A stretch of 54,007 nt of DNA from a virus. The notes under the pieces were generated by a model. The model worked only from the letters and a program-made list of their open reading frames with translations, made no database searches and was not told the origin of the DNA. The stretch's first letter is position 1, and every line of letters begins with the position of its first letter. Positions 1 to 19,503 of the stretch are shown in pieces. Location of the stretch: IMG/VR virus record IMGVR_UViG_3300003410_000471, positions 1 to 54,007 of that record. The stretch is one strand, 5' to 3'. Position numbers and translations under genes: made by a program.

Positions 1-176
1 CCACCGTAAATTACAATGCGAGCATCGTCGTCTGCATAGTTTACACGTAGAGCATCAGCAAGCCATACTTTGCTGTTGACTTGTCCTTTCCAAAAACTTT
101 CAAGTGTACGATATCGGTCATTGCTGTTGCGAATTGCATCCATCCAAAATAGTACATCTTGTATATCAACTCTCAT
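1..176 (-). CDS. Possible SAM-dependent methyltransferase, N-terminal part (runs off the window)
   Basis: Only the first 58 codons are inside the window; the gene continues past base 1. It starts at an ATG at 176-174, inside the end of the UDP-sugar dehydrogenase gene (11-base overlap, 166-176). The visible part begins MRVDIQDVLFWMDAIR, has a middle stretch ESFWKGQVNSKVWLADAL, and ends in DARIVIYGG. A beta strand ending in a YGG-type glycine turn after a helical leader resembles the N-terminal region of small phage proteins annotated as class I methyltransferases, but the SAM-binding region itself lies mainly outside the window. The assignment is therefore tentative. It is the last visible member of the sugar/radical SAM gene run and should be co-transcribed with it. 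Confidence 0.45.
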   Translation of the reverse strand, partial: MRVDIQDVLFWMDAIRNSNDRYRTLESFWKGQVNSKVWLADALRVNYADDDARIVIYG

Positions 177-900
177 TTCGAACCTTTTTATTGTATTCAA
201 TTGCTTCACGTAAGATACTCAGCTCAACGTTATTGCGGTGGGCTGTTTTTATGATTGCATTTGTATCTTTAGGAAAGCAATGTCCACCAAAGCCACGTTC
301 ATCTGTAATGAATGTATGACTGTCGCCAATGCGTTCGTCCATGCTTGTATAGTGCGCAACTGCTGAATACTCTACATCAAGTGCATCGCACAAATCATAC
401 AGTTGATTGAAGTATGCAACTTTAAGTGCAAGAAAACTATTGCGAGCATACTTGGCTAAGATAAGTTCACGAGGCTCTGCAATTTCAATGTTCACTTCGA
501 ACACATCTTTCCAAAAGCAGGTATTGGTTCCGCCTATGAGCATTAAACGCATGTTCTGTAGATCTTCTACTGCACTTGCTGCACGTAGGAACTCTGGGGA
601 GAAGTTTAGCATACGATCAGGAAACGCATCTACTAGCATATCCCAGCCTTCTACAGAAATTGTGCTTTTGATTAGTACGGGCACATCTGGTGCTGCTTCG
701 ATTACTTCGTACACATTGTCCATGTGACAACTGCCGTCTGGTCGCGGTGGTGTGCTTACACAGACAATTACTGCATCAACATCGTCGTAAGAATTAGTAT
801 ACCCTAATGCCGGGTCATTGATTACAACATCGTGTTTAAACTTTAGAACTTCGTAATGTGCTTTGCCAACGAACCCATAACCTGCTATTAATATTTTCAT
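166..900 (-). CDS. Short UDP-glucose/GDP-mannose dehydrogenase family protein
   Basis: A 244-residue member of the nucleotide-sugar dehydrogenase family, which oxidises UDP-glucose-type sugars to uronic acids using NAD. The N-terminal Rossmann domain has GYGFVG at residues 7-12. The central helical region has KYARNSFLALKVAYFN at about 150-165. The catalytic motif GFGGHCFPKD puts the active-site cysteine at residue 208. Full-length enzymes of this family are usually about 390-450 residues; this one stops soon after the catalytic motif and lacks the C-terminal sugar-nucleotide-binding domain. The frame is intact and ends with a clean stop, so it looks like a natural short form, not a broken gene. 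The ATG at 900 overlaps the preceding radical SAM stop (ATGA). It probably feeds sugar nucleotides to the neighbouring glycosyltransferases, although activity without the third domain is uncertain. Confidence 0.85.
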   Translation of the reverse strand: MKILIAGYGFVGKAHYEVLKFKHDVVINDPALGYTNSYDDVDAVIVCVSTPPRPDGSCHMDNVYEVIEAAPDVPVLIKSTISVEGWDMLVDAFPDRMLNFSPEFLRAASAVEDLQNMRLMLIGGTNTCFWKDVFEVNIEIAEPRELILAKYARNSFLALKVAYFNQLYDLCDALDVEYSAVAHYTSMDERIGDSHTFITDERGFGGHCFPKDTNAIIKTAHRNNVELSILREAIEYNKKVRNES

Positions 901-1895
901 ATTTTCCTCTTTGGTATTTTACTATCTGCACTGCTTACACAACTAGGTGTAACGCATTTCTTTGGTGTCTTAAACAGCGTAAAACCGCCGTCTAACGTGC
1001 CTAAAGCTTCGTCATGACAACTGTAGCTGCGCTTTACTTCGTTCTCTCTTATAACGCATCCTTGATAGCCTGCATTACATTCCCAGCCCTCGAACTTGTT
1101 AAAACCAAACGCATTAAATCGTTCTGCTTGATCTATGTAGTAGGTATTTCCGCCTGTGTCTTGCAATTCTACTTGTAGTAAAGGTATTATTCCTTTAAAT
1201 GCTTCTGGGATCGTTTGCGGGAATCCTGTTTGCATTTTGTGTACTTGTTCATCTGTGTATCCGTGTACAACGTAGGAGGCAGTAGGGTCGGATTGGGGCT
1301 TGAGAGTGACATTAATACCTCTGGAGGCAAATCGTTCAAGACGTTGATAAAGTTCGTCAAACATTTCTGGCACCATGACTTGATTGATTGTAACATATAC
1401 ACCTGCTTTCATAAGTTGAAGACATTTGTCTCCAAACTCTTGCTCGTTAGCAAACTCTGAATGATAGCTTGCTGTAATACTTCTACGTTGCAAACTGCTC
1501 GTAGTTTCTATCCATTTGTTCCACCATTTGCTTCCTGGGCTGAGATTGGTCGTCATGTGGATACTCTGGTACTCGGGAGTTGCATCACTGCAATAATGGT
1601 CTATAACCTTCCCAAAGTATTTATAAGCTGTGGGTTCGCCGCCGCTAAAACTAAAGTGAAAATCTTTAAAACCATTTGCACGGGCCTGACGTTTTATTTC
1701 ATCTATTGTACGAGTGTAAACTTCTAAATCTTGATGGTCAGGAGTGCTGCTGCGAGCATAGGGCCAGCAGTAGCTACAGTTGTAATTACAAAATCTTGCA
1801 AGTATCCAAGACACTGTAAACAAGTTTGTATTTAATAGAGTCTTTTGACCAAAGCTTGTTATATCTTTAAATGGTATGTTTTGAAAATTGTTCAT
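897..1895 (-). CDS. Radical SAM protein with C-terminal cysteine cluster
   Basis: A 332-residue radical SAM enzyme from the ATG at 1895. The longer frame would need a TTG at 1907, which I did not choose. The core iron-sulfur motif CxxxCxxC is at residues 36, 40 and 43 (CNYNCSYC), followed by the GGEP SAM-contact motif at 85-88. The C-terminal part carries cysteines at about 273, 280, 293, 314 and 319, a spacing like the SPASM/twitch auxiliary-cluster domains that often modify peptides or activate partner enzymes. The substrate cannot be read from the sequence. The gene begins inside the end of the small glycosyltransferase gene (29-base overlap), ends in an ATGA overlap with the dehydrogenase, and differs from the two longer radical SAM proteins of the cluster, whose extra cysteines are N-terminal. 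Confidence 0.88.
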   Translation of the reverse strand: MNNFQNIPFKDITSFGQKTLLNTNLFTVSWILARFCNYNCSYCWPYARSSTPDHQDLEVYTRTIDEIKRQARANGFKDFHFSFSGGEPTAYKYFGKVIDHYCSDATPEYQSIHMTTNLSPGSKWWNKWIETTSSLQRRSITASYHSEFANEQEFGDKCLQLMKAGVYVTINQVMVPEMFDELYQRLERFASRGINVTLKPQSDPTASYVVHGYTDEQVHKMQTGFPQTIPEAFKGIIPLLQVELQDTGGNTYYIDQAERFNAFGFNKFEGWECNAGYQGCVIRENEVKRSYSCHDEALGTLDGGFTLFKTPKKCVTPSCVSSADSKIPKRKI

Positions 1896-2541
1896 GCAAC
1901 CACTCAAAATTGTTTATAAGGCTAATGTCACTCTTATTAGAAATCCCAAACTTCCTACCAGCATTAGCACCAGCAAGAGCGTAATTGCCGTAGCGTTTCT
2001 CAGAGACTTTTGTACACCACGTATCGAGTCTCTTTTCGGTTTCTTCGTTGTTTTGTCTTGTAATTGTTTTACTACTTAGTTTGGCACATTCTCTAAATGC
2101 ACTACGCCATGTTTCAAATGGACTTGTGTTAAATGCTGTAGTATTTGCAACTTCATCCATAGCAATAAAATGTTCACTTATGCTTGTAGTCATATCCGCC
2201 TTACTTGTATCCATTTCTATTGTAAGTTTGCGGGGAAATAACTTTACTCCTCCATAGCCATATTCTAATCCATTAATAGGATTATTTGCTCTCCATACAT
2301 GTACATGATCTAATTGATGGTCCGGGACAACATAATCAAAATTAAATGTATTTTTAATAATTGCATCGCCGTCGACTATCCAAAACATCTTAGTAAAGCA
2401 TTTCTTTGCTGCCTTTATGTGTGCTTGATGTATTCCTTTAACTCCGTGTACACGTTTAGCCATAGGAAATCGTGCCTTTAGTGCAGCATAGTTTTCATCT
2501 GCAGAAGGCTCTTGGTAACTAATAAAGACTATATCGTACAT
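1867..2541 (-). CDS. Small glycosyltransferase-like protein (DGD motif)
   Basis: A 224-residue protein with a glycosyltransferase-A-like beginning: MYDIVFISYQEP, then RVHGVKGIHQAH at about 30-41, then WIVDGDA with the metal-binding-type DGD at 57-59. The same pattern appears in the 305-residue protein at 9744-10661 (LSYDEPNAEKNY, RVHGVEG, VDGDN), so the two are paralogues. This copy is shorter, but a WR(S/A)(A/G)FRE element is shared. The sugar donor and acceptor are unknown. The start ATG at 2541 coincides almost exactly with the transcription start predicted from the sigma70-type promoter at 2548-2576, and no good Shine-Dalgarno sequence precedes it, so the message may be leaderless. The downstream radical SAM gene begins within this one. 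Confidence 0.72.
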   Translation of the reverse strand: MYDIVFISYQEPSADENYAALKARFPMAKRVHGVKGIHQAHIKAAKKCFTKMFWIVDGDAIIKNTFNFDYVVPDHQLDHVHVWRANNPINGLEYGYGGVKLFPRKLTIEMDTSKADMTTSISEHFIAMDEVANTTAFNTSPFETWRSAFRECAKLSSKTITRQNNEETEKRLDTWCTKVSEKRYGNYALAGANAGRKFGISNKSDISLINNFEWLHEQFSKHTI

Positions 2542-2547
2542 TGTATT

Positions 2548-2576
2548 ATTGTAACACCGTGTTTAATAAATGTCAA
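2548..2576 (-). promoter_or_regulatory. Sigma70-type promoter inside the sugar-modification run
   Basis: Read on the minus strand, TTGACA (2576-2571) is followed by 17 bases and TACAAT (2553-2548). The -35 box overlaps the stop codon of the upstream radical SAM gene. The expected transcription start, about 7 bases past the -10 box, falls at about 2541, which is the A of the ATG of the next gene. Confidence 0.7.
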
Positions 2577-4093
2577 GAAGAGTATCGATTATATAGTTCA
2601 GCAAATTCTGGAAATGTTTCGCAGAAATTAGTGTTTCTACGGGCATCATGCTGATCAAAATATTTAACTAGGTTATAACGATTTCTTTCAACTGCTTCAT
2701 CGTTATTCAAGTGACGTGCTTTTAATACTGCTAGATTGCGTTCTGCTTTTTTAATTTCAAAGTCATAAAAGCCTACAAAATCGTCAGTATTTGCATTTGC
2801 TTTCATAAATTCAATTGCATCTTCTAAATAATGATCAAACTCTTTAGGTAGTATTTGTATTGCTTGCCATGCTGGATTTCTTAGTAACGGAATATCAAAC
2901 CAAATTCGCTGCCTTGGGTGGATTTCGTAGTCGTCATGTGTATTGTACTGATCATATATAGGAATATATTTTGTTCCTTGATTGCCTTTACTGTACTCGG
3001 CTCTTAGAGAAAGTATATATTCTAAAAAGCTTTTAAATTTAGGAACACTCAATGCGTTGAATGTATTGATAAATGTCATTGTTGTATTATTGGTTTCTGC
3101 TAAAAATCTATCTACATTACTTTGCATTGCACTGTAATCTAATCCTGTTCTGATATATTCGGCTTGTTCTTCTACACTGTCAACACTAACAAATACTGCG
3201 ACATTTTTTAATGCCATGTTAACATACCAGTTGTTACCTGAGCCAGGATTAAAACGTTCGTCGTCTTTCCATATTTGTATTTCTTCTAGTTTCTTCAACT
3301 TGGTAATAAATTTGTCCATTAATTCAGATTTTGGAGGTGAAAAGTTACTGGTTACGCTAACCTCTAACCATGCGTTAGGATTTTCGTAGATATAATCCAA
3401 TACTTTAAATGTATTAACGTCCATTAGCGGCTCTCCGCCTGTGATACGAAATACTTCAAGTTTTTTGTATAACTCCGGCCACCATTTCCAAAATGCTGTT
3501 ACATAGGGATTATCGGCTTGCGGAACTTTTAGTGGCATTAATCCATCTTTTGCTAGATACTCGGTATTATTATGTTCTGCCTTTTCGCCTTTGTCATTTA
3601 TAATACTATAAGATCCGAACTTGTTGATTTCTTCTTCCCATGCTGTGCTAAGGTGCGGACTACAATATGAACATTTAAGATTACATGCTTGATTAAAGTT
3701 TACTTCTACGTAACGCGGAGTTATATCTCCGGTATCTAATGCTTCAAAAACATCCGTTTTAGAATTTTGTGCCCATTGCTCGCCGCTGCGATAAATTCTA
3801 TCACTGCGTCCGCCTTGATCTTCAATTTTCCAACAGTAATTACATCCTTCAGGACGTTTACCTGCGAGCATCTCTTTGCGTTCTTGTTTCTTTTGTTTTG
3901 TATTATGTAGAGCACTTGGATTTTCTTTAATTTCTTCCGCATCAATTTTATGCAAGGGAGGATGATAACAACTATGTGTTGTGCCGTTGGTCAAGTGCAT
4001 GGACATCTGTGCCCATTTTGCATAGCACATGCTTGACGAAATACGTTTTAATTGGGATTCTGCTACATCAGCAGCATCATTATAATTACTCAT
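2573..4093 (-). CDS. Radical SAM protein with N-terminal auxiliary cysteine motif (twitch-like), 506 residues
   Basis: The radical SAM core is shown by CNLKCSYC (cysteines 137, 141, 144) and TGGEPLMD (GGEP at 219-222). The distinctive feature is an N-terminal region with cysteines 23, 42 (in HSCYHP), 84 and 87 (in GCNYCW), which looks like a ligand set for an auxiliary iron-sulfur cluster of the twitch/SPASM kind placed before the core rather than after it. The protein at 8347-9747 has the same four cysteines at identical positions and is a clear paralogue. The C-terminal part is long and charged; near its end both share a DxRRNTNF(C/L)ETFPE element. Related proteins are known in phages as twitch-domain radical SAM proteins, with no established substrate. 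The gene is joined to the upstream SGNH-like gene by an ATGA overlap. Confidence 0.88.
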   Translation of the reverse strand: MSNYNDAADVAESQLKRISSSMCYAKWAQMSMHLTNGTTHSCYHPPLHKIDAEEIKENPSALHNTKQKKQERKEMLAGKRPEGCNYCWKIEDQGGRSDRIYRSGEQWAQNSKTDVFEALDTGDITPRYVEVNFNQACNLKCSYCSPHLSTAWEEEINKFGSYSIINDKGEKAEHNNTEYLAKDGLMPLKVPQADNPYVTAFWKWWPELYKKLEVFRITGGEPLMDVNTFKVLDYIYENPNAWLEVSVTSNFSPPKSELMDKFITKLKKLEEIQIWKDDERFNPGSGNNWYVNMALKNVAVFVSVDSVEEQAEYIRTGLDYSAMQSNVDRFLAETNNTTMTFINTFNALSVPKFKSFLEYILSLRAEYSKGNQGTKYIPIYDQYNTHDDYEIHPRQRIWFDIPLLRNPAWQAIQILPKEFDHYLEDAIEFMKANANTDDFVGFYDFEIKKAERNLAVLKARHLNNDEAVERNRYNLVKYFDQHDARRNTNFCETFPEFAELYNRYSS

Positions 4094-5013
4094 TTAAATC
4101 TCTCATGTAAATATTCTGCAACTTCTATACTGATAACTTCGCCCGGGTGTTGTAGATCTCTTGCAGTTTTATCAATCTTAAAGTGTTTTTCGGCATTTAG
4201 GATTTGGGCAGTAGAATAAAAAAAGGATATACTAGAATACTTGCTGCGTTCTTTCCATAACCACTTTCCAATTAATCCTTGATTATAAGTAAGGCCTATT
4301 TCGTGGGAAGGATCTGCATATGTAAGTTGCCATAATTTACTAACGTCAGTTTCTTGACTCGTGTGAGGAGCTTTGTGTCGTCCGTCCCAAGGCCCAGATT
4401 TGTGTCTGCCGATCTTTGAAAAAAATTCAAATCTATCCGTAGGAGTCCAAATAGTAGCTACTGCGTATGGTGTTTCAAAGCTTTCCAATATTTTTGTAGA
4501 ATTATATAAAATTAAACTATTCGAACCTCCTGGAACTCCTAAATTAATTACTGGGCGCCCGGATAGTCGTTCTAAATGAAATGATATTGTCTCGTCGTCC
4601 GATAGGCCAATGCCGTATGTACAAGAACAACCTAATAATACAATAGAGTTTTTCCAATCAATTTGATCCCATTCTAGAGTACGGAAACCTGAACTATTAA
4701 CTGTATATGTAACCTCTTTTGTTAGATATTTCCAATCTTTACCTTTTTTTCTTTTACTACTGTTAAATCTATTTTCGTCGTCTCCTTGCAACCATAGATA
4801 TTTTCCAGAAACTTCTGGAGAATCAATTTTATTAAATGTGCCGACTGGATTTATTCCGAAAGGGTGCTCTGTATCCGTTAGATACAATGGAAAATTGTCA
4901 TCTATCTGTTTATCATCAAATAAAGGAGGTGATTTATTAGATTTTTCATTCGTATTTTGGCTTTGAGTGACCGAACGAAATCTTGCCATCATTTTTTTAT
5001 TTTTTTTACTCAT
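4090..5013 (-). CDS. SGNH-hydrolase-like protein A
   Basis: A 307-residue protein with signatures of the SGNH/GDSL hydrolase fold, a group containing esterases and O-acetyl-sugar transferases or esterases. A VNSSGFR element is at about 105-111. Block I reads LLGCSCTYGIG, with the candidate nucleophile serine at 130. NLGVPGGSN at 157-165 fits the oxyanion-hole blocks. DLQHPG (Asp286, His289) fits the block V D-x-x-H pair. The N-terminal 40 residues are basic and polar and probably unstructured. The first codons contain two runs of seven or eight A residues on the coding strand, a spot where polymerase or ribosome slippage is possible. It sits between another SGNH-like gene and a radical SAM gene, so acylation or deacylation of a glycan is a reasonable guess, not a demonstrated role. 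Confidence 0.75.
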   Translation of the reverse strand: MSKKNKKMMARFRSVTQSQNTNEKSNKSPPLFDDKQIDDNFPLYLTDTEHPFGINPVGTFNKIDSPEVSGKYLWLQGDDENRFNSSKRKKGKDWKYLTKEVTYTVNSSGFRTLEWDQIDWKNSIVLLGCSCTYGIGLSDDETISFHLERLSGRPVINLGVPGGSNSLILYNSTKILESFETPYAVATIWTPTDRFEFFSKIGRHKSGPWDGRHKAPHTSQETDVSKLWQLTYADPSHEIGLTYNQGLIGKWLWKERSKYSSISFFYSTAQILNAEKHFKIDKTARDLQHPGEVISIEVAEYLHERFK

Positions 5014-5021
5014 ATTAGCCT

Positions 5022-6032
5022 TTAAATATTGTTTATATAGTTATATAAGTGTTTTGCAAATAAGTCATGTCCTTTCTGACTAGGATGCGAACACGGTGTC
5101 ATCCATCCGTTATATGAACCTTTTCCTAAAAACTGAAAATAATGATCATGTTTATCATCTAACTTATCTTCTTGAGCAATAACTAAGTCAGCAAATGTAG
5201 TGTGTCCGTCAGGTTTAAACATGTTGTTCCATGGAAATAACTCCAACAAATTTGTTTTATCTGATGCAGACTTGCTTAGGATAGGCTTGGTAGATTTTAC
5301 AAATAACTCATCTTTTCTTGTTACTTCTTTTGATAAACATTCTCGAAAATAGTCCTTGTCGTATCTTCTATCAAAACCCGGTGTAATTATTAATTTTGCC
5401 TTTTTAGACTTACACCAAGACATTAGTTCTTGCACATGGGCAAGTTGTTCTATTACCTCAAATTTATCACTTGACAGAGTTTTAGCATACCCTTCCCATA
5501 GCGTTTTACGCGGACTCTCTTCCATATCTTTATAATGGGGCCACATGCATTTCCAATTAAAATGGTCAACTGCTACATCATTAACAAAATCAAATCTTTC
5601 AAGACCGCTAGGCATATATAGCACTATAATTTCTTTTAATTCGTTATAGTTAATTTCAGGATACATATATAATTCTTTGATTGACGCTCTATTGCCACAT
5701 CCTCGAAGTCCTAGATTAATTGGAGTATATTTTCCGTTAAAATACTTGTTGCACAAAACACTAACAAAGGCATTTTTGTATTCCATCATAGTAAAATCCA
5801 TTCCATGCATTGAATTGGAAACACCTTGATAATTTTTTGATATTCTTTTACGCTCTTTTGAAGATGCATCTATAACAAGTGGAAGTCCTTCAGTATACTT
5901 CCATTTAAAATTTTCATATAGCTCATCATCAAATGCGCCTTGGCCTTGTACAAAGGAACACCCAATTGCAATAATGGCCCTTTTAGTATTTTTTAAATCT
6001 TTGTTTATTCTAGTAACTTGCGATTTATACAT
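5022..6032 (-). CDS. SGNH-hydrolase-like protein B
   Basis: A 336-residue protein with an SGNH-like plan. IAIGCSFVQGQG places a candidate serine nucleophile at residue 26, NLGLRGCGN follows at 106-114, and SHPSQKGHDLFAKH near the C-terminus supplies a histidine at 316. Unlike its neighbour at 4090-5013, the position three before this histidine is proline (313) where the usual Asp of the D-x-x-H block would be, so the catalytic acid may be missing or supplied elsewhere. The ATG at 6032 overlaps the stop of the preceding gene by one base (TAATG), indicating coupled translation. A role in trimming or decorating a sugar is inferred from context only. Confidence 0.7.
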   Translation of the reverse strand: MYKSQVTRINKDLKNTKRAIIAIGCSFVQGQGAFDDELYENFKWKYTEGLPLVIDASSKERKRISKNYQGVSNSMHGMDFTMMEYKNAFVSVLCNKYFNGKYTPINLGLRGCGNRASIKELYMYPEINYNELKEIIVLYMPSGLERFDFVNDVAVDHFNWKCMWPHYKDMEESPRKTLWEGYAKTLSSDKFEVIEQLAHVQELMSWCKSKKAKLIITPGFDRRYDKDYFRECLSKEVTRKDELFVKSTKPILSKSASDKTNLLELFPWNNMFKPDGHTTFADLVIAQEDKLDDKHDHYFQFLGKGSYNGWMTPCSHPSQKGHDLFAKHLYNYINNI

Positions 6033-7348
6033 TATGTTTCCTTATCGACATAATCTTCTATAACTTTTAAATACGGTGAAGGATGTTTATTAGTCCTAGA
6101 CTTTAAAATGTTATAATTATGATTTAAAATATCTTCTAAGCCTCGAAACCATTCTAATTTATCATCAACAGACATACTGTTTATTCTAGAAATTTCATTA
6201 GTAATTGCTTGCATACGTGGCCAAGTACTTAATTTATCATAACTTTCATCGATAAAGGGACTAAATGTTTTATAGCCTAATTCACGCAATCTAGATAAAG
6301 ATCCTTTGTTTCCAGCTATTATAAAAGGATGACAGCATGCTATAGGTTTAAATGTTTTTTCACTAAGAAAACATTCGTGCTCACTGTCTCCAAACGATGC
6401 TTCGCTAACAACTGTAACCCAGGTGTCTAACATTATTTGTTCGTTAAACATAGTCAAATAGTTTCCGCAATCGTGATCGGCAAATTTTTTTAATCCTGAG
6501 TTGTTCGGAGGTAGTAACGGTAATTTACCAATTATATTAGAATAGTCGCTTTCTGTCATTGTTTTGTCTTCGTAGTAAGACTGATTCAATTTAAAGACAT
6601 TCATACTGTTTATTCCACAGTCTAATAATCCAGCATCTGATAGATGCTTAAAAAACCAAGCACGATGAGCTCTTGGGCGCTTCTGTAATGCACTATATGT
6701 TTTTATGGTAGACAAGTTAGTTTCTTTATACGTTAATTGTTGTTCAAAATTTGGATATGTATCAGTTGCAGCATGGGATAAAATGTTTGCAATCGAAGTT
6801 TCAAAATGTGGATAAGGAACTACAAAAATTTTATTATCTGGAAGTCGATCTTTAGCCCAGTTATTATATTGATCTCTACTATCTAAATTGCCAGTAACAT
6901 ATATAATTTGCGTAGGAGGTATTCTATACTTTTCAAGATTATTGTGAAACCATGCCCAAAGCCATTCGGTTTGATACCCTTCATGACACTGATCTATTAG
7001 TAAGTATGCATTTTTTCGGCTTAATGATTTACGTTGTTTTTTACTTAGGTGTCCAAATAAAGTAACTCTATTAGGATTTTCTTTATCAAGACCTAACCCA
7101 GTATCGTCTGGACCGCACCAATCCCACGGGGCATGGGCTACACCAGTTGCAATAATATGTTTCTGATTTTTTTCTCGAGTTGTAGAGAATGTGTGGTATC
7201 CGTGTTCTTGTTGTCCTCGACGCTGATGATAATCAATTACGATAGGACTAGGAGTAAATCTACGTATTCCGGATAGATTTTTATCACGGCATTTAATAAA
7301 ATTTGTAAATAATCCGTGCGTGCCTATAGATTCGAATAAAAAATGCAT
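6032..7348 (-). CDS. Glycosyltransferase-like protein with exostosin-type C-terminal motif
   Basis: A 438-residue protein that I do not recognise with certainty. Its C-terminal third holds FLSEKTFKPIACCHPFIIAG, then a G-x-L-x-x-L-R-E-L-G-Y-K-T-F stretch and FIDESYD. The order S-E-K-x-x-K-P-hydrophobic, P-F-hydrophobic, G-x-L, L-G-(F/Y)-x-T-(F/W) is typical of the donor-sugar-binding half of GT-B transferases such as exostosin and fucosyltransferase families. The N-terminal half has no motif I can name but includes a histidine-rich stretch near residues 40-60. It abuts the epimerase stop with no spacer and overlaps the next gene by one base, consistent with a sugar-transfer role in the same pathway. 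The exact family is uncertain. Confidence 0.55.
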   Translation of the reverse strand: MHFLFESIGTHGLFTNFIKCRDKNLSGIRRFTPSPIVIDYHQRRGQQEHGYHTFSTTREKNQKHIIATGVAHAPWDWCGPDDTGLGLDKENPNRVTLFGHLSKKQRKSLSRKNAYLLIDQCHEGYQTEWLWAWFHNNLEKYRIPPTQIIYVTGNLDSRDQYNNWAKDRLPDNKIFVVPYPHFETSIANILSHAATDTYPNFEQQLTYKETNLSTIKTYSALQKRPRAHRAWFFKHLSDAGLLDCGINSMNVFKLNQSYYEDKTMTESDYSNIIGKLPLLPPNNSGLKKFADHDCGNYLTMFNEQIMLDTWVTVVSEASFGDSEHECFLSEKTFKPIACCHPFIIAGNKGSLSRLRELGYKTFSPFIDESYDKLSTWPRMQAITNEISRINSMSVDDKLEWFRGLEDILNHNYNILKSRTNKHPSPYLKVIEDYVDKET

Positions 7349-8350
7349 TTAAATTAACCGATCCGTCCATGTTTTTGGAGTTTTGTAATTTACAATCTCT
7401 AGTGGAAATGTGTAGTCAAACGGCTTTGTGCCTCGTTTTTTAATATAGTCAACAGTATATTCAACTGCTGTTTCTAAATTGGTAGTTGTTTTATAATTTA
7501 ATAACTTGCGAGCTTTATCTGCACTACACATTGCATGTTTAACTTCTTGAGGACGGTCATCGACATGTATAGGATCTAAATTACAACCTGTTTTATTGGC
7601 TACTAGTTTTGCTAAATTTTTGATATTTATTGTTCCTTCATCTGGTCCAATATTTACTATTTGGCTTGATATATTTTTATCTAATGCGAGTTTTTCAAGA
7701 CACTGAATACAGTCATCAATGTAACTAAAGCATCGTGTTTGTTCGCCATCGCCGTATATAATAGCAGGATTGCCTTGTAAATTTCTATTGATCATAATAC
7801 TCATTACATTTCGGAATGGATCATCATAACGCTGCCTTGGTCCAACAATGTTGTGCGGCACAGCAATATTCCATTCCATACCGTGTACTTCACTTAGCGT
7901 AGTCAGTACTTGTTCGCCTGCTACTTTAGCAATGCCGTAAGGATCAACTGGGGCAGGTGTCTGTGTTTCAACAAACGGAATCTGTTGATTTCCGTAACGT
8001 GCCATACTAGTACAGTATACAAAACGTTTTACCTTGTTTTCAAGTGCTGCACTAATTGTAGATACCGTTGCTTGAAATATATTCTTAGTAATAAAATCTG
8101 GGCTTACTACACTTAGACCTTCATGAGCAGTTGCAGCAGTGTGTATAACAATATCTATATCTTTCATTATATCTGCCATGCGTTCTCTGTCGCAACAATC
8201 TACTTTGTACAAAGTAGCTTTGTGATGTACATTATCCTCATAACCGCCAATCAGTGTATCGTTGCCAGATACTTCGTGACCAAGTTCTATCATACGATCT
8301 GCTAAATGACTTCCTAGAAATCCTGCAATGCCTGTTATAAAAATTTTCAT
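7349..8350 (-). CDS. NAD-dependent epimerase/dehydratase (nucleotide-sugar, extended SDR family)
   Basis: A 333-residue protein of the extended short-chain dehydrogenase family, usual length for nucleotide-sugar epimerases and dehydratases. It opens with TGIAGFLGSH (glycines 7, 10, 13), the NAD-binding loop. CTSMARYG at 113-120 supplies the catalytic serine or threonine region, and DPYGIAK gives the YxxxK pair at Tyr138 and Lys142. RCFSYIDDC and NIGPDEG are typical substrate-domain elements. It is expected to interconvert a nucleotide sugar in the cytoplasm for the neighbouring transferases; whether it epimerises or dehydrates cannot be decided from the motifs. The ATG at 8350 overlaps the stop of the radical SAM gene upstream (ATGA). 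Confidence 0.92.
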   Translation of the reverse strand: MKIFITGIAGFLGSHLADRMIELGHEVSGNDTLIGGYEDNVHHKATLYKVDCCDRERMADIMKDIDIVIHTAATAHEGLSVVSPDFITKNIFQATVSTISAALENKVKRFVYCTSMARYGNQQIPFVETQTPAPVDPYGIAKVAGEQVLTTLSEVHGMEWNIAVPHNIVGPRQRYDDPFRNVMSIMINRNLQGNPAIIYGDGEQTRCFSYIDDCIQCLEKLALDKNISSQIVNIGPDEGTINIKNLAKLVANKTGCNLDPIHVDDRPQEVKHAMCSADKARKLLNYKTTTNLETAVEYTVDYIKKRGTKPFDYTFPLEIVNYKTPKTWTDRLI

Positions 8351-9747
8351 AGTTTTCCTAAATTTTGTTCACTTGCTAAAGACTTACAATGATTCCAAAA
8401 ATTATCCATTTCAGGAAAAGTTTCTAAAAAGTTTGTATTTCTTCTACGATCCATCTCTGTAAACCAATTATAAAAATCTGCACGACCTTCTTGTACTCGG
8501 GTTTCGTCATAATTAGCTGTTGCAAAGTAATCTCGAACTCGACGAAACTTTTGATATTCTAACTCTGTAAATTTGGTCGGATCGTAATCGTCTTTGTTAT
8601 CGTTAATAAATTGTAAAATTTTATCAAAATACGGCAAAAATTCTTCTTTTGGTAAAATCATCATATCATACTGTAAAGGTTCTTTTAAATACGGTGTGTC
8701 AAATCTAATGCGCCGGCCATATCCTCCTGGATTCATTGTTGGTTGATATTTTGTTCGCCAGTCTAAAATCTTTTGTAAAAAATCTGTAAACGAAGTCACA
8801 CTTAAAATATTAAATGTACACATAATACTAACAGGTGCATTTGTAGTTGCTATATAGGTTTCTAAATTTTGTTCCCACAACTCTGTTTTAAGTCCAGTAC
8901 GAATATATTCGGCTTTTTTGCCCCAAGAGTCTAAACTTGAAAATAATTTAAAGTTTTTAATCTTTTTATTTTCCACTAGGCTTTTTACATTTGTTGCTAG
9001 TTTTTCTACAAGTGCTGGCTTAACACCTAGATTGCTATTTAAATTTAATTCTAATTTAGGCTTTGCTTCTTCTTGTAAAAGGTCAAATAGTCTCCAAGTA
9101 CTACGGTGCATCAAAGGTTCGCCGCCGGTGAGACGTAAAATGTTTAGTGTTTTACTAACTTCTGGCCACCATTTCCACCAAGCAGCAATATACGGATTTT
9201 CTTCTTCAGCATATGGTTTAAACCAGTCAACATTTAATGTATGATTTTTAACTGGCATTGGCCCGTGTTTTTTTATTTCTGCATCATACGAACTACTTGC
9301 CATAGGATGACAGTATCCACATTTAAAATTACATTCGTTACTAAACGCCAATTCAATATATTCAGGATTAATATTAAAATCCCAAGGACTATTAACAATT
9401 TCTTCTAATCTATGCTGATTATAAATGCCTGCATTACGTTCGTGCCTATCACTAATATGTGTATCACTAAGACCTTCAACATTCCAGCAGTATTGACAGC
9501 CTTTGGGCTTTTCGCCTACCAGCATTAAAGCACGTTCTTTTTTCTTTTCTATCGTATTATGAAGTGCAGAAGGATCCTTTTCAATTTCTTCAAGAGGTAT
9601 ATGATGAGGTGCTGGATGATAACAACTATGTGTGTCACCAGTATGCAAATAAATTGTAGTATGATGCCACTTTGCTAAACAGAAAGTAGGACTAATCTTA
9701 TTTGTAATCTCTTTAGTTTGTGTTATTCTGTCAGTTTCATTACTCAT
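8347..9747 (-). CDS. Radical SAM protein with N-terminal auxiliary cysteine motif (twitch-like), 466 residues
   Basis: Paralogue of the 506-residue radical SAM protein at 2573-4093. Core motif CNFKCGYC has cysteines 139, 143 and 146, and TGGEPLMH places GGEP at 208-211. The N-terminal auxiliary set is Cys23, Cys42 (HSCYHP), Cys84 and Cys87 (GCQYCW), at the same residue numbers as in the paralogue, so the first 87 residues align without a gap. The C-terminal RRRNTNFLETFPEMD element is also shared. The protein lies directly after the DGD glycosyltransferase gene (ATGA overlap) and before the epimerase, so the pair transferase plus radical SAM occurs twice in this cluster. Substrate unknown; modification of a sugar or of a lipid- or peptide-linked acceptor are both possible. 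Confidence 0.88.
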   Translation of the reverse strand: MSNETDRITQTKEITNKISPTFCLAKWHHTTIYLHTGDTHSCYHPAPHHIPLEEIEKDPSALHNTIEKKKERALMLVGEKPKGCQYCWNVEGLSDTHISDRHERNAGIYNQHRLEEIVNSPWDFNINPEYIELAFSNECNFKCGYCHPMASSSYDAEIKKHGPMPVKNHTLNVDWFKPYAEEENPYIAAWWKWWPEVSKTLNILRLTGGEPLMHRSTWRLFDLLQEEAKPKLELNLNSNLGVKPALVEKLATNVKSLVENKKIKNFKLFSSLDSWGKKAEYIRTGLKTELWEQNLETYIATTNAPVSIMCTFNILSVTSFTDFLQKILDWRTKYQPTMNPGGYGRRIRFDTPYLKEPLQYDMMILPKEEFLPYFDKILQFINDNKDDYDPTKFTELEYQKFRRVRDYFATANYDETRVQEGRADFYNWFTEMDRRRNTNFLETFPEMDNFWNHCKSLASEQNLGKL

Positions 9748-10661
9748 AGTTTTTCTATAAACCTTTGATTGTCAGTTCTTGACGGATGCTGGTACACTGC
9801 TTTAAAAAATTTACTTTGCTGTGCATCTAATGGTTGTTCTGCGATAGGTATATCTAGTTGACTGATTAACTTAATACCGTATTCTTCAATTTCATAATCG
9901 ACATCTTCAATTGATTCAAACGACACTTTCCATAAATCGTTCAAGTATTCAAAGTCACGTACTTGCACGTAATCCCAGTCTGTACACATTGTCATATACA
10001 ATCCTGCTCGTGTTCCAAGTATTGCCCAGTCACCGTTTTCTACATCTTTGCCTATCATACTCCATATGTATAGCCAGTGCAAGCAACGCCAGTGATTATT
10101 CTTTAGTTCTTCTTTTGAAATTCTTACGCCGCGATCAGTTGCAAGTTTAACACCTTCTCTAAAACCTGCTCTCCATGCTTGTGCAGGAGTTTCGTTGTTG
10201 TACACGTCAGAATAACAACTATTCATTTGAATGTATTGTGCATCCCAGCAAAAGTCTACTTGAGCATGTGCATTATCAGGGTCTGCATTTTCATGTGTTT
10301 TCATATTCAATACATACTCACGAGGCCAACATTTAAGTCCGCCGTTGCCGTACATTAGTCCATTAATCTCATTACGGCCGCACCAGCTGATAACAGTATT
10401 TTTCAAATCTGCATGTTCATCGAAGTCAATTTCTTGATTTAAAAAATCTTCACGTATACGGTTGTCACCGTCTACTGTAATAAATCTATCTGTCTCGCTT
10501 AGTTCTGCACAAGCTTTGTGTGCGGCGTCTGAGCCTTCTACACCGTGTACACGTTTAGCCCACGGAACTTTTTTACACAAGTCAGCGTAGTTTTTTTCTG
10601 CATTAGGTTCGTCATAACTAAGATAGATAATATCGTAGTCAATTGGTTTAAATTTTGCCAT
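9744..10661 (-). CDS. Glycosyltransferase-like protein (DGD motif), 305 residues
   Basis: A longer paralogue of the 224-residue protein at 1867-2541. It has IIYLSYDEPNAEKNY near residues 11-25, WAKRVHGVEG at 34-43, and ITVDGDN with DGD at 64-66, then an aromatic-rich middle and an AWRAGFREG element. This is consistent with a metal-dependent GT-A transferase, although I cannot name the CAZy family. The ATG at 10661 overlaps the stop of the preceding 446-residue gene by one base (TAATG); the stop overlaps the radical SAM start (ATGA). The tight coupling to a radical SAM gene suggests that both products act on the same acceptor. Confidence 0.72.
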   Translation of the reverse strand: MAKFKPIDYDIIYLSYDEPNAEKNYADLCKKVPWAKRVHGVEGSDAAHKACAELSETDRFITVDGDNRIREDFLNQEIDFDEHADLKNTVISWCGRNEINGLMYGNGGLKCWPREYVLNMKTHENADPDNAHAQVDFCWDAQYIQMNSCYSDVYNNETPAQAWRAGFREGVKLATDRGVRISKEELKNNHWRCLHWLYIWSMIGKDVENGDWAILGTRAGLYMTMCTDWDYVQVRDFEYLNDLWKVSFESIEDVDYEIEEYGIKLISQLDIPIAEQPLDAQQSKFFKAVYQHPSRTDNQRFIEKL

Positions 10662-12001
10662 TATATAATCTCATGAGCATAACTTTCAAAATATTTTGCT
10701 GTGTATATACTTACATCAGTATCACTACTTTCAGACTCGAATATGAACGGAATTGCCGTTAGACTATCTGATAATAATTCTCCAACAGTAAATTCTAGAC
10801 TTCTAAAAAGTACATTTGGATCATATTTTGATGTTACACTAAAATATAATACTTCCGTAGGTTTATATCCACTAGTTAATAGGAATTTTTTAGTATGTGG
10901 ATTTAATAAAATACTCCAATAATTTCCAAAAGTGTTTTGTTGAATAATTATGTCGTATTCTTTATCAACTTGTACTTGATGAAGTTGTTTTCCTGATAGA
11001 ATAATTTGTCCATTTTTTAAATTTACCGGCATATGCAAGTCTAATTGTATATCTCGATATGTAATTTTTTCAGTTAAGTCAACTAAATCAACTTCTGCAC
11101 ACATATCATCAACATAATACAAAAGTGTAGTAGGATTAGAATAGAAAAAGATACTTGTTTTATCTTTACTAAAATCCTGCATTACAAGTTGTATGCTGTA
11201 TATACTGTTATCGTTAAGTACAACGTCTCCAGGAGTAATAGTTTTAACTACCGGAAGTTTTTTATTTGCATCTGAATATAATTTTACATTGCTAACAACA
11301 ATTTCTGCATTATCCATAGTAAATTCAGTATATGCTGGTTGATCTTCTAAGAGTCTATAAACTACTCCGTTAATCCAAACATGCTGTCCTGACAAATGAG
11401 ATAATTCCTTATACCAAACATCTACGTGTATACCCACGTATTCTGGAATCATGGTTAGTTTTTCTGCTGAATGGGTTTGTGTAGGCAACGAAGTTATTAG
11501 TACGTCCTCTACAAAAAGAATATGTTCATCTTTGTCAAATACCTCAGAAGGAACTAGATCTGTCTTTAATTTATAAACATTATCTTTAAACCAAACACAC
11601 TGGTTTTTACTATAACTATGATTATCGTTATACATATAAATGTCAACACCATCGTAAACTTTTTCTATAGAAAAATGCTCATCATGTGTATGCTTAATTA
11701 CAGGCAATTGATAACACATTGTATCAGCTGTTCGATGAGAGTCGTCGTATGCTACTTCTTTTAGTCTTATTTCTTTAACACTGACATCATAAAAAATAGC
11801 ATACTCATCTGTACGGCGTTCGCCAGTAAGTATAGACTGAACTTCGTTCGTATCAATAGGAAAAATCTTGTACTCTTCATCAGGAATATTCTTACTGCTA
11901 ATTTTGTATATTTTTCCGTTATCGCTGTCATAATAGACATAGGATTTTGTCCTATCACTGCTAACTTGTATTCTTTTAATTAAATTTTGTAAATCAGACA
12001 T
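10661..12001 (-). CDS. Unknown repeat-containing protein, 446 residues
   Basis: I do not recognise this protein. It is rich in beta-forming residues (V, I, Y, T) and has no evident signal peptide or membrane segment. A degenerate unit recurs about every 55-105 residues, each centred on a short G/N-x-x-V/I-Y-x-hydrophobic strand: near residue 28 (NGKIYKI), 135 (CVWFKDNVYKL), 205 (GQHVWINGVVYRL), 260 (VVLNDNSIYSI) and 330 (NGQIILSGKQL). This suggests a string of small beta domains, such as a binding or adhesin-like scaffold. It lies between glycosyltransferase genes, overlapping the upstream one by 8 bases and the downstream one by 1. It could be an acceptor or scaffold for the transferases, or a virion protein; neither is shown. 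Confidence 0.6.
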   Translation of the reverse strand: MSDLQNLIKRIQVSSDRTKSYVYYDSDNGKIYKISSKNIPDEEYKIFPIDTNEVQSILTGERRTDEYAIFYDVSVKEIRLKEVAYDDSHRTADTMCYQLPVIKHTHDEHFSIEKVYDGVDIYMYNDNHSYSKNQCVWFKDNVYKLKTDLVPSEVFDKDEHILFVEDVLITSLPTQTHSAEKLTMIPEYVGIHVDVWYKELSHLSGQHVWINGVVYRLLEDQPAYTEFTMDNAEIVVSNVKLYSDANKKLPVVKTITPGDVVLNDNSIYSIQLVMQDFSKDKTSIFFYSNPTTLLYYVDDMCAEVDLVDLTEKITYRDIQLDLHMPVNLKNGQIILSGKQLHQVQVDKEYDIIIQQNTFGNYWSILLNPHTKKFLLTSGYKPTEVLYFSVTSKYDPNVLFRSLEFTVGELLSDSLTAIPFIFESESSDTDVSIYTAKYFESYAHEII

Positions 12002-12836
12002 TTGTTAGACTCCTGTATCTTTCTATTGCAGGCGATTTTGTTACGAAGTCATTTTCAGTATAGTGCAGAATTCCTGTTTGTGCATAATTGCCTATTTTTA
12101 TACTACCATCTTTAGAAATATACACACCTACACGATCTTGCCAGCTAGATTGTATTTCATTCCATCCTTGGCAGTAAGGTTTCATATGTGTAAAATTAGG
12201 AAACTTAGCAATTTTATTTGTAATTGCATCTTCACAATCTAGTATACTAGTAACGATAGCAGCACATACATCAATACTTAGATGTGTAGGGCGAGATGTA
12301 GCCACTAAATGTTGTTCGTAAAACGCTTGCCAATTGTTTACTATTAGTTCTAACCAAGCATAAAACTCTTGTGCAAATTTGCATTTCTTAAAATAATGAA
12401 ATCCGCTAAACAAGTTTGGTAAATTGTTTTCTATAAATGTTTTTCTATAGTAACTAGTATCTGCTGCTTCGCCTCTATAATTTAGTACATTGCTAACAAA
12501 AAACATTTCATAATTAGACAAAAACTTCCACCACATGTCAATGTTTTGTAACACTAACATATCTGTATCCATTACAATTGTTTCGTCATACGGACTAGCA
12601 TGATATAATTTCCATCTATTTTCAATTTTCCAGTCAGTGTCTTTGGCTGCATCGTTAAACGGAATAGGAATAATTTTATCAAAGAGTTTTTGATATTCTT
12701 CTGGCACAATATTATTTGTTACTAAACTAATAGGAGTATCATTATGCGCTCGTAAACTCATTGCTAATAATGATGCTTGTTCAACGTAGTTGTCTATTTC
12801 ATTATTTTGCGCAAGAACCATTATACCTTTACTCAC
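11994..12836 (-). CDS. GT8-like glycosyltransferase A (DTD motif), GTG start
   Basis: A 280-residue GT-A type transferase. Helical and strand pattern plus YDETIVMDTDML, with the metal- and nucleotide-sugar-binding DTD at 90-92, resemble glycogenin/GT8-like phage transferases. The start is a GTG at 12836: beginning there gives MSKGIMVLAQNN, which aligns with MSKGVFLIARNN of the adjacent paralogue, whereas the first in-frame ATG would remove these residues. The gene overlaps its upstream paralogue by 8 bases through the same GAGTAA arrangement seen at the next junction upstream. The two transferases look like an old tandem duplication now well diverged. Donor sugar and acceptor unknown. Confidence 0.75.
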   Translation of the reverse strand: MSKGIMVLAQNNEIDNYVEQASLLAMSLRAHNDTPISLVTNNIVPEEYQKLFDKIIPIPFNDAAKDTDWKIENRWKLYHASPYDETIVMDTDMLVLQNIDMWWKFLSNYEMFFVSNVLNYRGEAADTSYYRKTFIENNLPNLFSGFHYFKKCKFAQEFYAWLELIVNNWQAFYEQHLVATSRPTHLSIDVCAAIVTSILDCEDAITNKIAKFPNFTHMKPYCQGWNEIQSSWQDRVGVYISKDGSIKIGNYAQTGILHYTENDFVTKSPAIERYRSLTNV

Positions 12837-13680
12837 CAGTGAACTCCTTATCGATAATTCTATTAAGACTAATTTTATTCATGACATGAATTGTTTGTCC
12901 TTGTGTTTTTAATGCTGTGTATTCTCCAAGATAGTCTTCCTTTTCTACTAAAAACAGCATTTCATCATCTACAAGTTTCCACAAAATGTCTTTATCTGTA
13001 GTATACAACATAGTTCCTGGTAGTTGTTGTGCAAAATCTCCCTTTGTAAAGCCATTTAACATATGTATAGCGATACTAAATGCAAAATCATTCCTAAACA
13101 AACTAGAAGTAATTTGATATGCCCTTCTATAATGATTCCATTCTTGCTCTATATGAGCAACAAGATCAAAAAACACTTTGTTTATTTCTGTTTTTCTAAA
13201 AAACACAACAGTAGCCCAGTAAAAGTCGACACTAGGATCACTTATTTTATCAAATTCAGTTTCGTCTCTAACTTTTGCAATATCGCTGGAGTTTTTATAA
13301 ATTAAAAAATCTGAGGTAGAATTAAAACAATCTTTCAACAAACTGTTTGATACAATATAATCTGTATCCATTAATAGAGTTTCGTCATATGGCGTAAGGT
13401 CATATACACTTGCACGATTATTATTTTTAAAGTTAGCTGTTTTTTTAGTCAAGCCGCCGTCGAAAAAATATCGCATATTAGATGCGCTGGTATACTCTAA
13501 TTCGATAATATTATCAAAGTCATCAGTGCCGAATGTTGTGGTTAGATATTCAGCACTATCAGTAGCAACTGTTACCGGAATATCTAAATATTTTTTTATA
13601 CGCTTTGCAAGAAATACTGCTTGTTTAACATAGTCAATATGTCCATTATTTCGTGCAATTAAAAATACACCTTTACTCAT
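12829..13680 (-). CDS. GT8-like glycosyltransferase B (DTD motif)
   Basis: A 283-residue paralogue of the protein at 11994-12836. It begins MSKGVFLIARNN and has PYDETLLMDTDYIV with DTD at 105-107, the GT-A metal site. An insertion of about 15 residues separates the N-terminus from the DTD relative to the other copy. The ATG at 13680 lies inside ATGAGTAA, where the TAA terminates the upstream 116-residue gene, an 8-base overlap. It is the first transferase after the sigma70-type promoter at 14050-14078. It is expected to be cytoplasmic and to add a sugar to a cell or phage acceptor not identified here. Confidence 0.75.
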   Translation of the reverse strand: MSKGVFLIARNNGHIDYVKQAVFLAKRIKKYLDIPVTVATDSAEYLTTTFGTDDFDNIIELEYTSASNMRYFFDGGLTKKTANFKNNNRASVYDLTPYDETLLMDTDYIVSNSLLKDCFNSTSDFLIYKNSSDIAKVRDETEFDKISDPSVDFYWATVVFFRKTEINKVFFDLVAHIEQEWNHYRRAYQITSSLFRNDFAFSIAIHMLNGFTKGDFAQQLPGTMLYTTDKDILWKLVDDEMLFLVEKEDYLGEYTALKTQGQTIHVMNKISLNRIIDKEFTGE

Positions 13681-14023
13681 AATTGACTAGTTTCTCTACA
13701 CTTCTATTCTTTTTAAGTTTAGCATATGCAGTATAATAGCTGTTAGATGCTACAGTGTATTTGTTTATAATTTCGCCATAAAATTCTTCAAGATTTTCAA
13801 TCATACACGGAATATTATTGTCATCAGTAATTACAACTTCGTCTTGATCAGCAGATACCATTGCACTTACAAAGGTAATTAGTTCACGAGTAAGCGTAAA
13901 CTGTGATCCTTTGTAAAAATGAATTAATTCTTCTTGATATTTTTCTGCTAACAGTCTTTTTTGATTATTGAGGGTTAGCATATAATTAGAAAAGTCTAGT
14001 GCTTTTTCTAAACGTTCGTCCAT
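13673..14023 (-). CDS. Conserved phage hypothetical protein, 116 residues
   Basis: A small, mostly helical, acidic protein opening MDERLEKALDFSNYMLTLNNQK and ending NRSVEKLVNYE. It resembles small hypothetical proteins seen in other marine T4-like phages, but no function is known to me. It is the first gene of the minus-strand run that continues to base 1. An AGGAG Shine-Dalgarno at 14031-14035 lies 7 bases before the ATG at 14023, the clearest ribosome-binding site of the run, and a near-consensus sigma70-type promoter lies just upstream. Being first behind a strong promoter suggests it is the most abundantly expressed product of the run. Confidence 0.8.
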   Translation of the reverse strand: MDERLEKALDFSNYMLTLNNQKRLLAEKYQEELIHFYKGSQFTLTRELITFVSAMVSADQDEVVITDDNNIPCMIENLEEFYGEIINKYTVASNSYYTAYAKLKKNRSVEKLVNYE

Positions 14024-14049: not shown

Positions 14050-14078
14050 AGTATATATTAAGTTTTAGGATTTGTCAA
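14050..14078 (-). promoter_or_regulatory. Strong sigma70-type promoter for the sugar-modification run
   Basis: On the minus strand TTGACA (14078-14073, consensus) is followed by 17 bases and TATACT (14055-14050). Expected transcription start is about 14043, 20 bases before the ATG of the 116-residue gene. It sits in the short gap after the last structural gene, so it gives the cluster 14023 to 1 its own host-RNA-polymerase promoter. Confidence 0.88.
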
Positions 14079-14089: not shown

Positions 14090-15073
14090 TTAAGAAAGGG
14101 TACGTATAGTAGTACCTACAGGTACATTATCAATCACAACTGCATCGTGTAATACACCATTGATTGTTACTTGGCTATCAGGAGTCGCTGTTTCTACAAC
14201 ACTATTAAATGTTCCAAATACCGGTTCGTCGATGCCATAAGTAGGATCATTTGGCGCACCATCTACAAATTCTACTTTAAATTGTATAGCAGACGTATCA
14301 TCTCCTGTGGCATATTCAGCAGCGTATATATTATATCTATTTCTAGCATACACTGCTCCGCCTGTTCTAGAATACAACAACTGATAACTTGATGTTAGAT
14401 CATAATTTCCAAGATTTGATCCAGTACCAATTCCTGCATTATTAATAGTTTCTGTTGCCTTAAAGCTCGTCGAACCCATTGCATTTAATATCGATTGCCA
14501 ATCAACTGTTTTAGCTTGACTTCCTGTATAACCTACATTAGCACTAATTCTAATTTGGCCTCCGGCATTGAAAAAGTGTCTGCGTTCAATAGCAGTATTA
14601 AATGTTATTGTAAAAATGTGAGAAATAGCACTAACCCAGGTAGTTGTATCTGGGCGTGTGCTGGATGCTGCTGAGACTGCTGCAATTGTTAAATTATTAG
14701 GATCTACAATTAATTTATCTGTATTAATATTAGTTGCTAAAGATTCTAACCCTTGTACATACGCTTCTTCAATTTTGTCAGCGTTTGCCAAGTTTGTGTC
14801 GTAATCTCCAATTACAAATTCATCAATTGTAACGGCGGCGCCCACTTGGTGGAATCTAGTTCTTACTAAGTCAATATATAAATCTTCATAATCTTGAGCA
14901 GTAATTTTATCAGCATCGGCTGGAGAAGTTACCGAACGTGTACCAACTACGCTATTAGTGCTGAATAATTGCCCGTAACCAAACTCAGGAGAGGCAGTAT
15001 TAGATTCACCTAGAATTAAATTTACATTATCTCGGAGAGTATTATATCTACTGGCTAATATTGTTGTTGGCAT
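14090..15073 (-). CDS. Virion structural protein, 327 residues (paralogue of the next gene)
   Basis: A beta-rich protein without transmembrane segments, similar to structural proteins found beside tail fibres in marine T4-like phages. It shares with the neighbour at 15135-16058 an N-terminal helix (ASRYNTLRDNVNLILG versus AARINNLQSSIALILG), an (R)FHQVG/(R)VHQVG element, and a central block: RR(H/F)FFN(A/T)GG(Q/E)IR(I/L)SAN, a DW segment, then (L/I)GNYDLTSSYQ-type and NIY(A/T) elements. I place the start at ATG 15073; the frame extends one codon further to a TTG at 15076. A late promoter motif lies at 15098-15105. It probably decorates the tail or fibre base; the exact position in the virion is unknown. 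Confidence 0.75.
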   Translation of the reverse strand: MPTTILASRYNTLRDNVNLILGESNTASPEFGYGQLFSTNSVVGTRSVTSPADADKITAQDYEDLYIDLVRTRFHQVGAAVTIDEFVIGDYDTNLANADKIEEAYVQGLESLATNINTDKLIVDPNNLTIAAVSAASSTRPDTTTWVSAISHIFTITFNTAIERRHFFNAGGQIRISANVGYTGSQAKTVDWQSILNAMGSTSFKATETINNAGIGTGSNLGNYDLTSSYQLLYSRTGGAVYARNRYNIYAAEYATGDDTSAIQFKVEFVDGAPNDPTYGIDEPVFGTFNSVVETATPDSQVTINGVLHDAVVIDNVPVGTTIRTLS

Positions 15074-15097
15074 CAATTATCTCTTTACTGTTAAGTA

Positions 15098-15105
15098 TAT
15101 TTATT
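15098..15105 (-). promoter_or_regulatory. T4-type late promoter motif AATAAATA
   Basis: The minus-strand octamer AATAAATA matches the late promoter element recognised by gp55-type sigma factors (TATAAATA in T4, NATAAATA in marine relatives). It lies 24 bases upstream of the ATG at 15073, in an intergenic gap of 61 bases, with the start codon preceded by AAGAGA. Confidence 0.65.
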
Positions 15106-15134
15106 TAAAAAATATTTAGAAAATTAAATGCTGA

Positions 15135-16058: not shown

Positions 16059-16067
16059 GATGATTCC

Positions 16068-17552: not shown

Positions 17553-17579
17553 TTATGTAACCCCTAGTGCTATTAGTAT

Positions 17580-17587
17580 TATTTATC
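17580..17587 (-). promoter_or_regulatory. T4-type late promoter motif GATAAATA
   Basis: Minus-strand GATAAATA just past the stop codon of the 636-residue fibre gene, in a 39-base gap, 27 bases before the ATG at 17552. It would drive the 494-residue fibre gene and the 307-residue structural gene. Confidence 0.68.
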
Positions 17588-17591
17588 GTTT

Positions 17592-19502: not shown

Positions 19503-19503
19503 T

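Follow-up and report, generated by a model that had tools for sequence, protein, structure and literature searches.

Pelagimyophages possess a hypervariable host recognition cluster (HRC), located between VrlC and gp14, which contains tail fibres, many transferases (GT8 being the commonest), UDP-glucose dehydrogenase, and radical SAM (rSAM) cassettes differing between sister phages (PMC7029224). The "LPS" cluster of P-SSM2-type cyanophages brings transferases and epimerase/dehydratase genes together (PMC7824862), and the marine T4-like genome TARA_ERS488813_N000010 carries 12 rSAM genes, which have been tied to Fe-S assembly and not to sugars (PMC5332604). In mycobacteriophages the virion bears glycans on the capsid and tail-tube protein (Freeman 2023, as reported in a passage of PMC12619734). 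Here we describe a gene island at positions 1-14023 of IMG/VR record IMGVR_UViG_3300003410_000471; this 54-kb virus record, taken at its full length of 54,007 nucleotides, is referred to as the window, and belongs to an aquatic, uncultured phage which is kin to the giant T4-type phages. A preliminary description held that no phage pathway of such make-up had been described. Because the HRC already combines fibres, GT8, UDP-glucose dehydrogenase and rSAM cassettes (PMC7029224), and a T4-like genome with 12 rSAM genes is on record (PMC5332604), the kind must be regarded as known. We assign a probability of roughly 0.55 to the reading that this is a fibre-linked, cassette-exchanging biosynthetic island which makes and attaches unusual sugars.

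Fourteen genes, every one of them on the minus strand, make up a single coupled run that follows the tail-fibre genes; most overlap by 1-41 bases or abut. Gaps of 31 bases (2542-2572) and 8 bases (5014-5021) are found inside the run, and 66 bases (14024-14089) separate it from the fibre gene. The tail fibre/collar genes directly upstream (14090..22192, minus strand; 328, 307, 494, 636, 691 and 200 amino acids) are tied inseparably to the core of the island. A promoter at 14078 marks the island's start, and the 446- and 116-residue proteins belong to it. At the other end it runs on beyond base 1: a 37.6-kb contig, identical over the 4054 bases compared, carries it on for approximately another 15 kb; five additional rSAM genes lie next to the edge of the window, and the contig as a whole gave nine rSAM matches. 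The open reading frames (ORFs) listed in the preliminary description, and their tight coupling, were confirmed, but that inventory had overlooked a GT-B-type transferase (o438) and the island's extension. The N_Twi_rSAM scores, the dN/dS values, and the retention of gene order in independently seeded sets of loci, all given below, show that these genes are real and more than chance.

Approximately 500 IMG/VR loci were retrieved with six different genes as seeds, some being overlapping stretches of the same contigs; SGNH1 as a seed gave 5 loci and was excluded from the statistics. Gene order, which the preliminary description had suggested comparing across phages, is strongly conserved, and the genes are linked and not scattered. 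Wherever the contig reaches, a near-invariant order is seen: fibres, the conserved small protein o116 (13673..14023), the GT8-like transferases T1 and T2, the fast-evolving o446 (10661..12001; no Pfam match above the cut-off), and the transferase G1. T1-seeded distinct loci display this fibre-o116-T1-T2-o446-G1 order in 41/41, 38/38, 35/35 and 28/28 cases, with o116, the first gene of the island, preceding T1 in 41/41. Where the seed was the 307-residue fibre gene (fib307), the fibre-to-G1 order of the distinct loci is likewise kept as far as the contig reaches, except that a 206-residue gene is inserted in two loci and o446 is replaced in one.

In several phage pairs, the G1 stop codon is the end of DNA homology. 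Between G1 and the module that begins with a second transferase, G2, we found 25 gene contents in 83 loci; the loci are not dereplicated, which makes 25 the safer number. The second module reads G2-rSAM_C-(UGD)-c10-rS360-N_Twi_rSAM-rSAM_C, and continues past the window in the extension contig (100% identical over the bases compared). The plan is constant-variable-constant, and related phages exchange the middle part as a cassette. Island genes having close relatives exhibit dN/dS values of 0.02-0.23 and are under purifying selection; the short UDP-sugar dehydrogenase (UGD) and SGNH2 lack relatives in range.

Sequence and models assign the five transferase-like proteins of the island to three folds, namely glycogenin-like (T1/T2), GT-A (G1/G2), and GT-B (o438). 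T1 (12829..13680) matches PDB glycogenin-2 in a profile comparison (4e-5), and both Asp residues of its DTD motif (D105, D107) are invariant; T2 (11994..12836) is its paralogue and likewise matches glycogenin by profile. We refer to these two DTD proteins, already recognized in the preliminary description, as GT8-like and not GT8, because no Pfam glycosyltransferase family matched (0 families at E<=0.1). G1 (9744..10661), the last gene of the first constant module, would be a divergent GT-A enzyme with a DGD motif: its AF2 model (pLDDT 89) gave the GT-A enzymes SunS, ThuS, RmlT and TarP as top PDB matches in Foldseek. G2 (1867..2541) is its paralogue (32% identical, 5e-36) and probably of the same fold; D64 and D66 of the DxD motif are invariant in 60 sequences of G1 and G2 homologues. 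The cassette transferase o438 (6032..7348; SEKTFKP motif) has a predicted GT-B fold (pLDDT 93; Foldseek match to trehalose-phosphate synthase, 1.3e-4). Sequence searches of the PDB found no relative of G1 or G2, and nothing useful for G1 or o438.

Three rSAM genes lie in the window. rSAM_A (8347..9747; NF033640 3e-92, 310 bits, model 1-397 of 398) and rSAM_B (2573..4093; 1.6e-93, 314 bits, model 1-398 of 398) are N_Twi_rSAM proteins well above the curated cut-off of 170 bits, and are paralogues (35% identical, 2e-95). The CX3CX2C cysteines (C139/C143/C146) and an N-terminal, twitch-like set (C23/C42/C84/C87) are invariant in 56 sequences of this family. rSAM_C (897..1907; PF04055 3e-13; C40/C44/C47 invariant) represents a different rSAM family without the N-terminal twitch, scoring 36 bits against the N_Twi_rSAM cut-off of 170, with CX3CX2C present. 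As many as 19 Pfam matches to radical SAM are found in the contigs of relatives (135-165 kb).

The preliminary description regarded transferase plus rSAM gene as a repeated unit. A DGD transferase followed by an rSAM gene does occur twice (10661-8347 and 2541-897), but no unit was duplicated: G1 and G2 are paralogues, but the paralogue of rSAM_A is rSAM_B, and not rSAM_C, which stands behind G2. The succession is nonetheless a habit of these phages. N_Twi_rSAM directly follows G1 in 21/28 T1-seeded distinct loci; among G2-seeded distinct loci with a next gene, rSAM_C or rS360 follows G2 in 27/36, and rSAM_C, rS360 or c10 in 34/36.

The remaining products resemble sugar enzymes and SGNH proteins. 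An NAD-dependent sugar epimerase/dehydratase (7349..8350; PF01370 4e-46) has LegB as its best NCBIfam match, below cut-off, and the 244-residue UDP-sugar 6-dehydrogenase (UGD; 166..900; PF00984 2e-24, PF03721 5e-9) retains GGHCFPKD; both, like the third rSAM gene at 2573-4093, had been listed earlier. No sugar kinase or nucleotidyltransferase was seen in the window's island. Relatives' islands also carry genes for UGD407, a DegT aminotransferase, a carbamoyltransferase, and a 2-oxoglutarate (2OG) oxygenase. Both ORFs previously called SGNH-like are present, but the assignments are weak: SGNH2 (4090..5013), SGNH/GDSL-like, matches the GDSL family NF047474 only at 5e-4, and SGNH1 (5022..6032) has conserved GCS and HP (C-x-HP) elements but lacks the Asp of DxxH, which with the first-block Ser marks an SGNH hydrolase and is not conserved here. 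Fatty-acid-desaturase-like proteins with an H-R-x-F/x-H-R/K-S motif occur within some islands (L340:5098-5895, L251:10366-11124, L068:5189-5941).

Two sigma70-type promoters were found on the minus strand. The first, a strong promoter with the elements TTGACA-17-TATACT (14050..14078; 11/12 match), lies before o116 in the 66-base gap; a promoter with at least 11/12 matches occupies this fixed position in 64-65% of 90-92 distinct relatives, versus 0.4% of shuffled sequences. The second, TTGACA-17-TACAAT with extended TG (2548..2576), stands before G2 at the 31-base gap, and at the same threshold is present in 41-42% of 90 distinct relatives (0.9% shuffled), fixed at -34/-35. Its -10 box ends approximately six bases before the start codon, and the G2 message may therefore be nearly leaderless. 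The other island genes have such a promoter in 0-2% of cases (G1, 9%). The structural genes are preceded by a late-promoter-like ATAAATA box, found before the 328-residue fibre gene (fib328) at 15098..15104 (minus strand) and also at 17586, 22218 and 41099. Observed against expected numbers among relatives were 52/70 (4.8) for fib328, 60/68 (5.5) for fib494, and 23/30 (1.2) for o200; at the island genes the box is not beyond chance (o116, 10/92, 6.0 expected). The T4 late box TATAAATA was not found before the island, and the structural genes carry only the NATAAATA variant. By analogy with T4 biology, sigma70 and late boxes would correspond to early and late expression, respectively.

From this gene content a pathway can be proposed. 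The epimerase and UGD, joined in relatives by the aminotransferase, carbamoyltransferase and 2OG oxygenase, would prepare activated sugars; the T1/T2 pair and G1 would start a glycan, which o438 and G2 would extend, and the SGNH-like and rSAM proteins would tailor it. Swapping of the G1-G2 block would change the set of tailoring genes. The enzymes are presumably cytosolic and, with host-type promoters, could precede the late structural proteins, of which the tail fibres are the most likely to be decorated. The preliminary description had likewise envisaged enzymes that make, attach and then alter a sugar chain; the five transferase-like proteins, epimerase, dehydrogenase and relatives' sugar genes support such a pathway, but the use of rSAM chemistry to alter the sugar is something that we infer.

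With regard to the target, the fibre is favoured, at a little short of even odds, because of the fibre linkage and the lack of export genes; the host surface, though unlikely, is the second candidate, and other acceptors taken together are doubtful. If the host surface were the target, O-antigen or capsule would be altered early in infection so as to block co-infecting phages (superinfection exclusion). Sigma70-type promoters in place of late boxes, and hypervariability of the kind expected in a conflict over surface serotype, fit such remodelling, and the similar transferase/UGD islands of pelagimyophages (PMC7029224) and P-SSM2-type cyanophages (PMC7824862) have been read in this manner. However, no flippase, polymerase, ligase or lipid-carrier transferase was recognized, and the core is inseparable from the tail-fibre genes. 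None of the named island families contains a protein with two or more predicted membrane segments; polysaccharide export would thus need host machinery, and this lack fits an intracellular target.

Several observations count against the reading of the island as a maker and attacher of unusual sugars. The structural matches are at fold level only, with TM values of approximately 0.3 (G1) and 0.4 (o438). Promoters of the sigma70 type instead of late ones would equally suit remodelling of the host. In another phage lineage, the rSAM_A-epimerase-o438-SGNH-rSAM_B block adjoins DNA ligase without any fibres, which weakens the case for the fibre as sole target and, together with the promoters, keeps the host surface in contention. 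Finally, the bacterial relatives of N_Twi_rSAM, mainly from Bdellovibrionota, stand alone or in rSAM arrays, mostly without G1, T1, o438 or SGNH neighbours; N_Twi_rSAM is therefore not glycan-bound by nature.

These bacterial relatives also bear on a second alternative, that fibre proteins or others are themselves the direct substrates of the rSAM enzymes, in the manner of ribosomally synthesized and post-translationally modified peptides, the transferases forming a partly separate pathway. We consider this improbable. In a Bdellovibrio-type metagenome-assembled genome (MAG), an 834-residue fusion of N_Twi_rSAM and a second radical SAM domain (L169:10001-12505) is located between two flagellin genes, which favours protein modification, and the locus has two GT9 transferases; two further bacterial N_Twi_rSAM genes lie beside or near GT4 genes. 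These transferase-bearing loci also count in favour of the sugar reading. Agrobacterium phage Atu_ph07 and Sinorhizobium phage Phosso provide the other supporting case. In both, other rSAM genes, of which some are SPASM-like, occupy the site behind the fibre gene and are interleaved with a protein of approximately 300 residues (Atu_ph07 gp170, L516:29119-30009; Phosso, L517:30415-31335) whose tail is CHxSCHxSCHxSRSRR, the C-terminal ends being ...CHSSCHASCHNSRSRR and ...CHTSCHASCHSSRSRR, respectively. It is possible that this is an rSAM substrate on a virion protein. Such a Cys/His-rich tail was not found elsewhere among the loci examined, the window's fibre proteins included; the window operon leaves no room for a precursor peptide (largest gap, 66 bases); and these rSAM genes are accompanied by those for sugar enzymes. 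A combined proposal, which we regard as rather unlikely, is that the tail fibres of the phage itself are tailored by the rSAM enzymes, either in their sugars or in their residues, and that enzyme cassettes are exchanged between constant transferases, such that kin would change the chemistry of the fibre and not its sequence; in the wider lineage (Atu_ph07, Phosso) rSAM genes occupy the same position, beside the candidate substrate protein with the CHxSCHxSCH tail.

A bacterial source for the whole island was considered and rejected, the N_Twi_rSAM relatives in Bdellovibrionota and others having no sugar core. One contig binned as Pelagibacterales, possibly of phage origin, combines N_Twi_rSAM with genes resembling the epimerase and o438. 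Among the phage isolates searched (tblastn), no carrier of G1, T1, o438 or fib307 was found, and the rSAM matches were only 25% identical, in Vibrio phages K566 and K567.

The third alternative, that the substrates of the transferases and tailoring enzymes are modified bases in the DNA of the phage, is very improbable. Many phage transferases do act on DNA, QueC-like PP-loop genes are found further along related islands, and the ligase-adjoining block mentioned above could be read this way. The linkage here, however, is to fibres, and a thymidylate-synthase-fold hydroxymethylase is absent from 8/10 long related contigs (one of 236 kb), which are possibly incomplete; the window contig itself is a fragment. 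Tet/JBP matched in 0/10 of the long contigs, though the Tet/JBP control also gave no signal.

A number of other features were observed in the window and in related contigs. To the right of 14 kb the window contains T4-type structural genes for fibres and collar, baseplate wedge and hub, followed by a late sigma factor and SbcCD; a single 5121-residue ORF (22215-37580) lies between baseplate wedge and fibre genes. The wedge and the 200-residue protein are nearest to giant-phage proteins of Phosso and Atu_ph07 (36-55%), Salicola phage SCTP-2 being a near relative for the wedge protein only. The extension of the window's island encodes a radical SAM protein with an HMPTM-type N-terminal zinc ribbon (L445:647-1705; PF23545), related to Tes/TrsS. 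N_Twi_rSAM matches with one in-frame TGA occur in the related contigs G003 (33266-34327) and G005 (31854-32921), and could represent two overlapping genes or real read-through. B12-binding radical SAM proteins are borne by phages (L448:10537-12390, L450:527-2491, L445:6027-7571), the first two matching KedN5-type C-methyltransferases below the curated cut-off (1e-56 and 9e-76). PP-loop ATPase-like proteins with an SGGxDS motif are encoded beside N_Twi_rSAM and other rSAM genes in phages (L445:8255-8947, L448:1425-2168) and in Bdellovibrionota (L182:5444-6205), the phage proteins having a QueC-like C-terminal CxxCxxC. One phage contig, which has 19 radical SAM matches, also encodes a TctC-like binding protein and a TctA-like membrane protein (L447:18463-20000, L448:1-528).

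It is common for phage transferases to be ascribed, untested, to modification of the host O-antigen or of DNA. The island offers a concrete alternative: a constant core is fixed to the tail-fibre genes, the tailoring cassette can be swapped, the island has promoters of its own that are of host type, and as many as 19 rSAM genes occur in one viral contig. Should the fibres be the target, host recognition would be varied through chemistry as well as through sequence variation and diversity-generating retroelements. The idea is open to bench work, since rSAM genes occupy the same position in cultured phages of Agrobacterium and Sinorhizobium.

In the literature searched, we did not find a description of a constant-variable-constant arrangement with paralogous transferases at its two borders, of the division between promoter types, of the assignment to GT-B, of so high a number of rSAM genes, or of the corresponding location in giant phages that have been cultured. 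The passage of PMC12619734 on mycobacteriophages, which are unrelated phages, mentions neither rSAM tailoring nor a swappable cassette such as that of the window. As in the P-SSM2-type cluster, transferases and epimerase/dehydratase are joined in the window's island, but the latter differs from that cluster in that no sugar kinase or nucleotidyltransferase was seen, and in its many rSAM genes, a term absent from the text of the review (PMC7824862). The extreme rSAM load is shared with TARA_ERS488813_N000010; unlike there, many of the rSAM genes here share a fibre-linked island with transferases, and contigs have up to 19 matches. The closest likeness is to the pelagimyophage HRC (PMC7029224), which is similarly hypervariable and fibre-linked, with transferases and rSAM cassettes. 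It differs from the present island in that the window phage has its nearest isolates, as judged by the baseplate protein, among giant phages of the T4 superfamily (Atu_ph07, Phosso, SCTP-2), and in that the present analysis resolves which part is constant and which is swapped, together with the two promoters.

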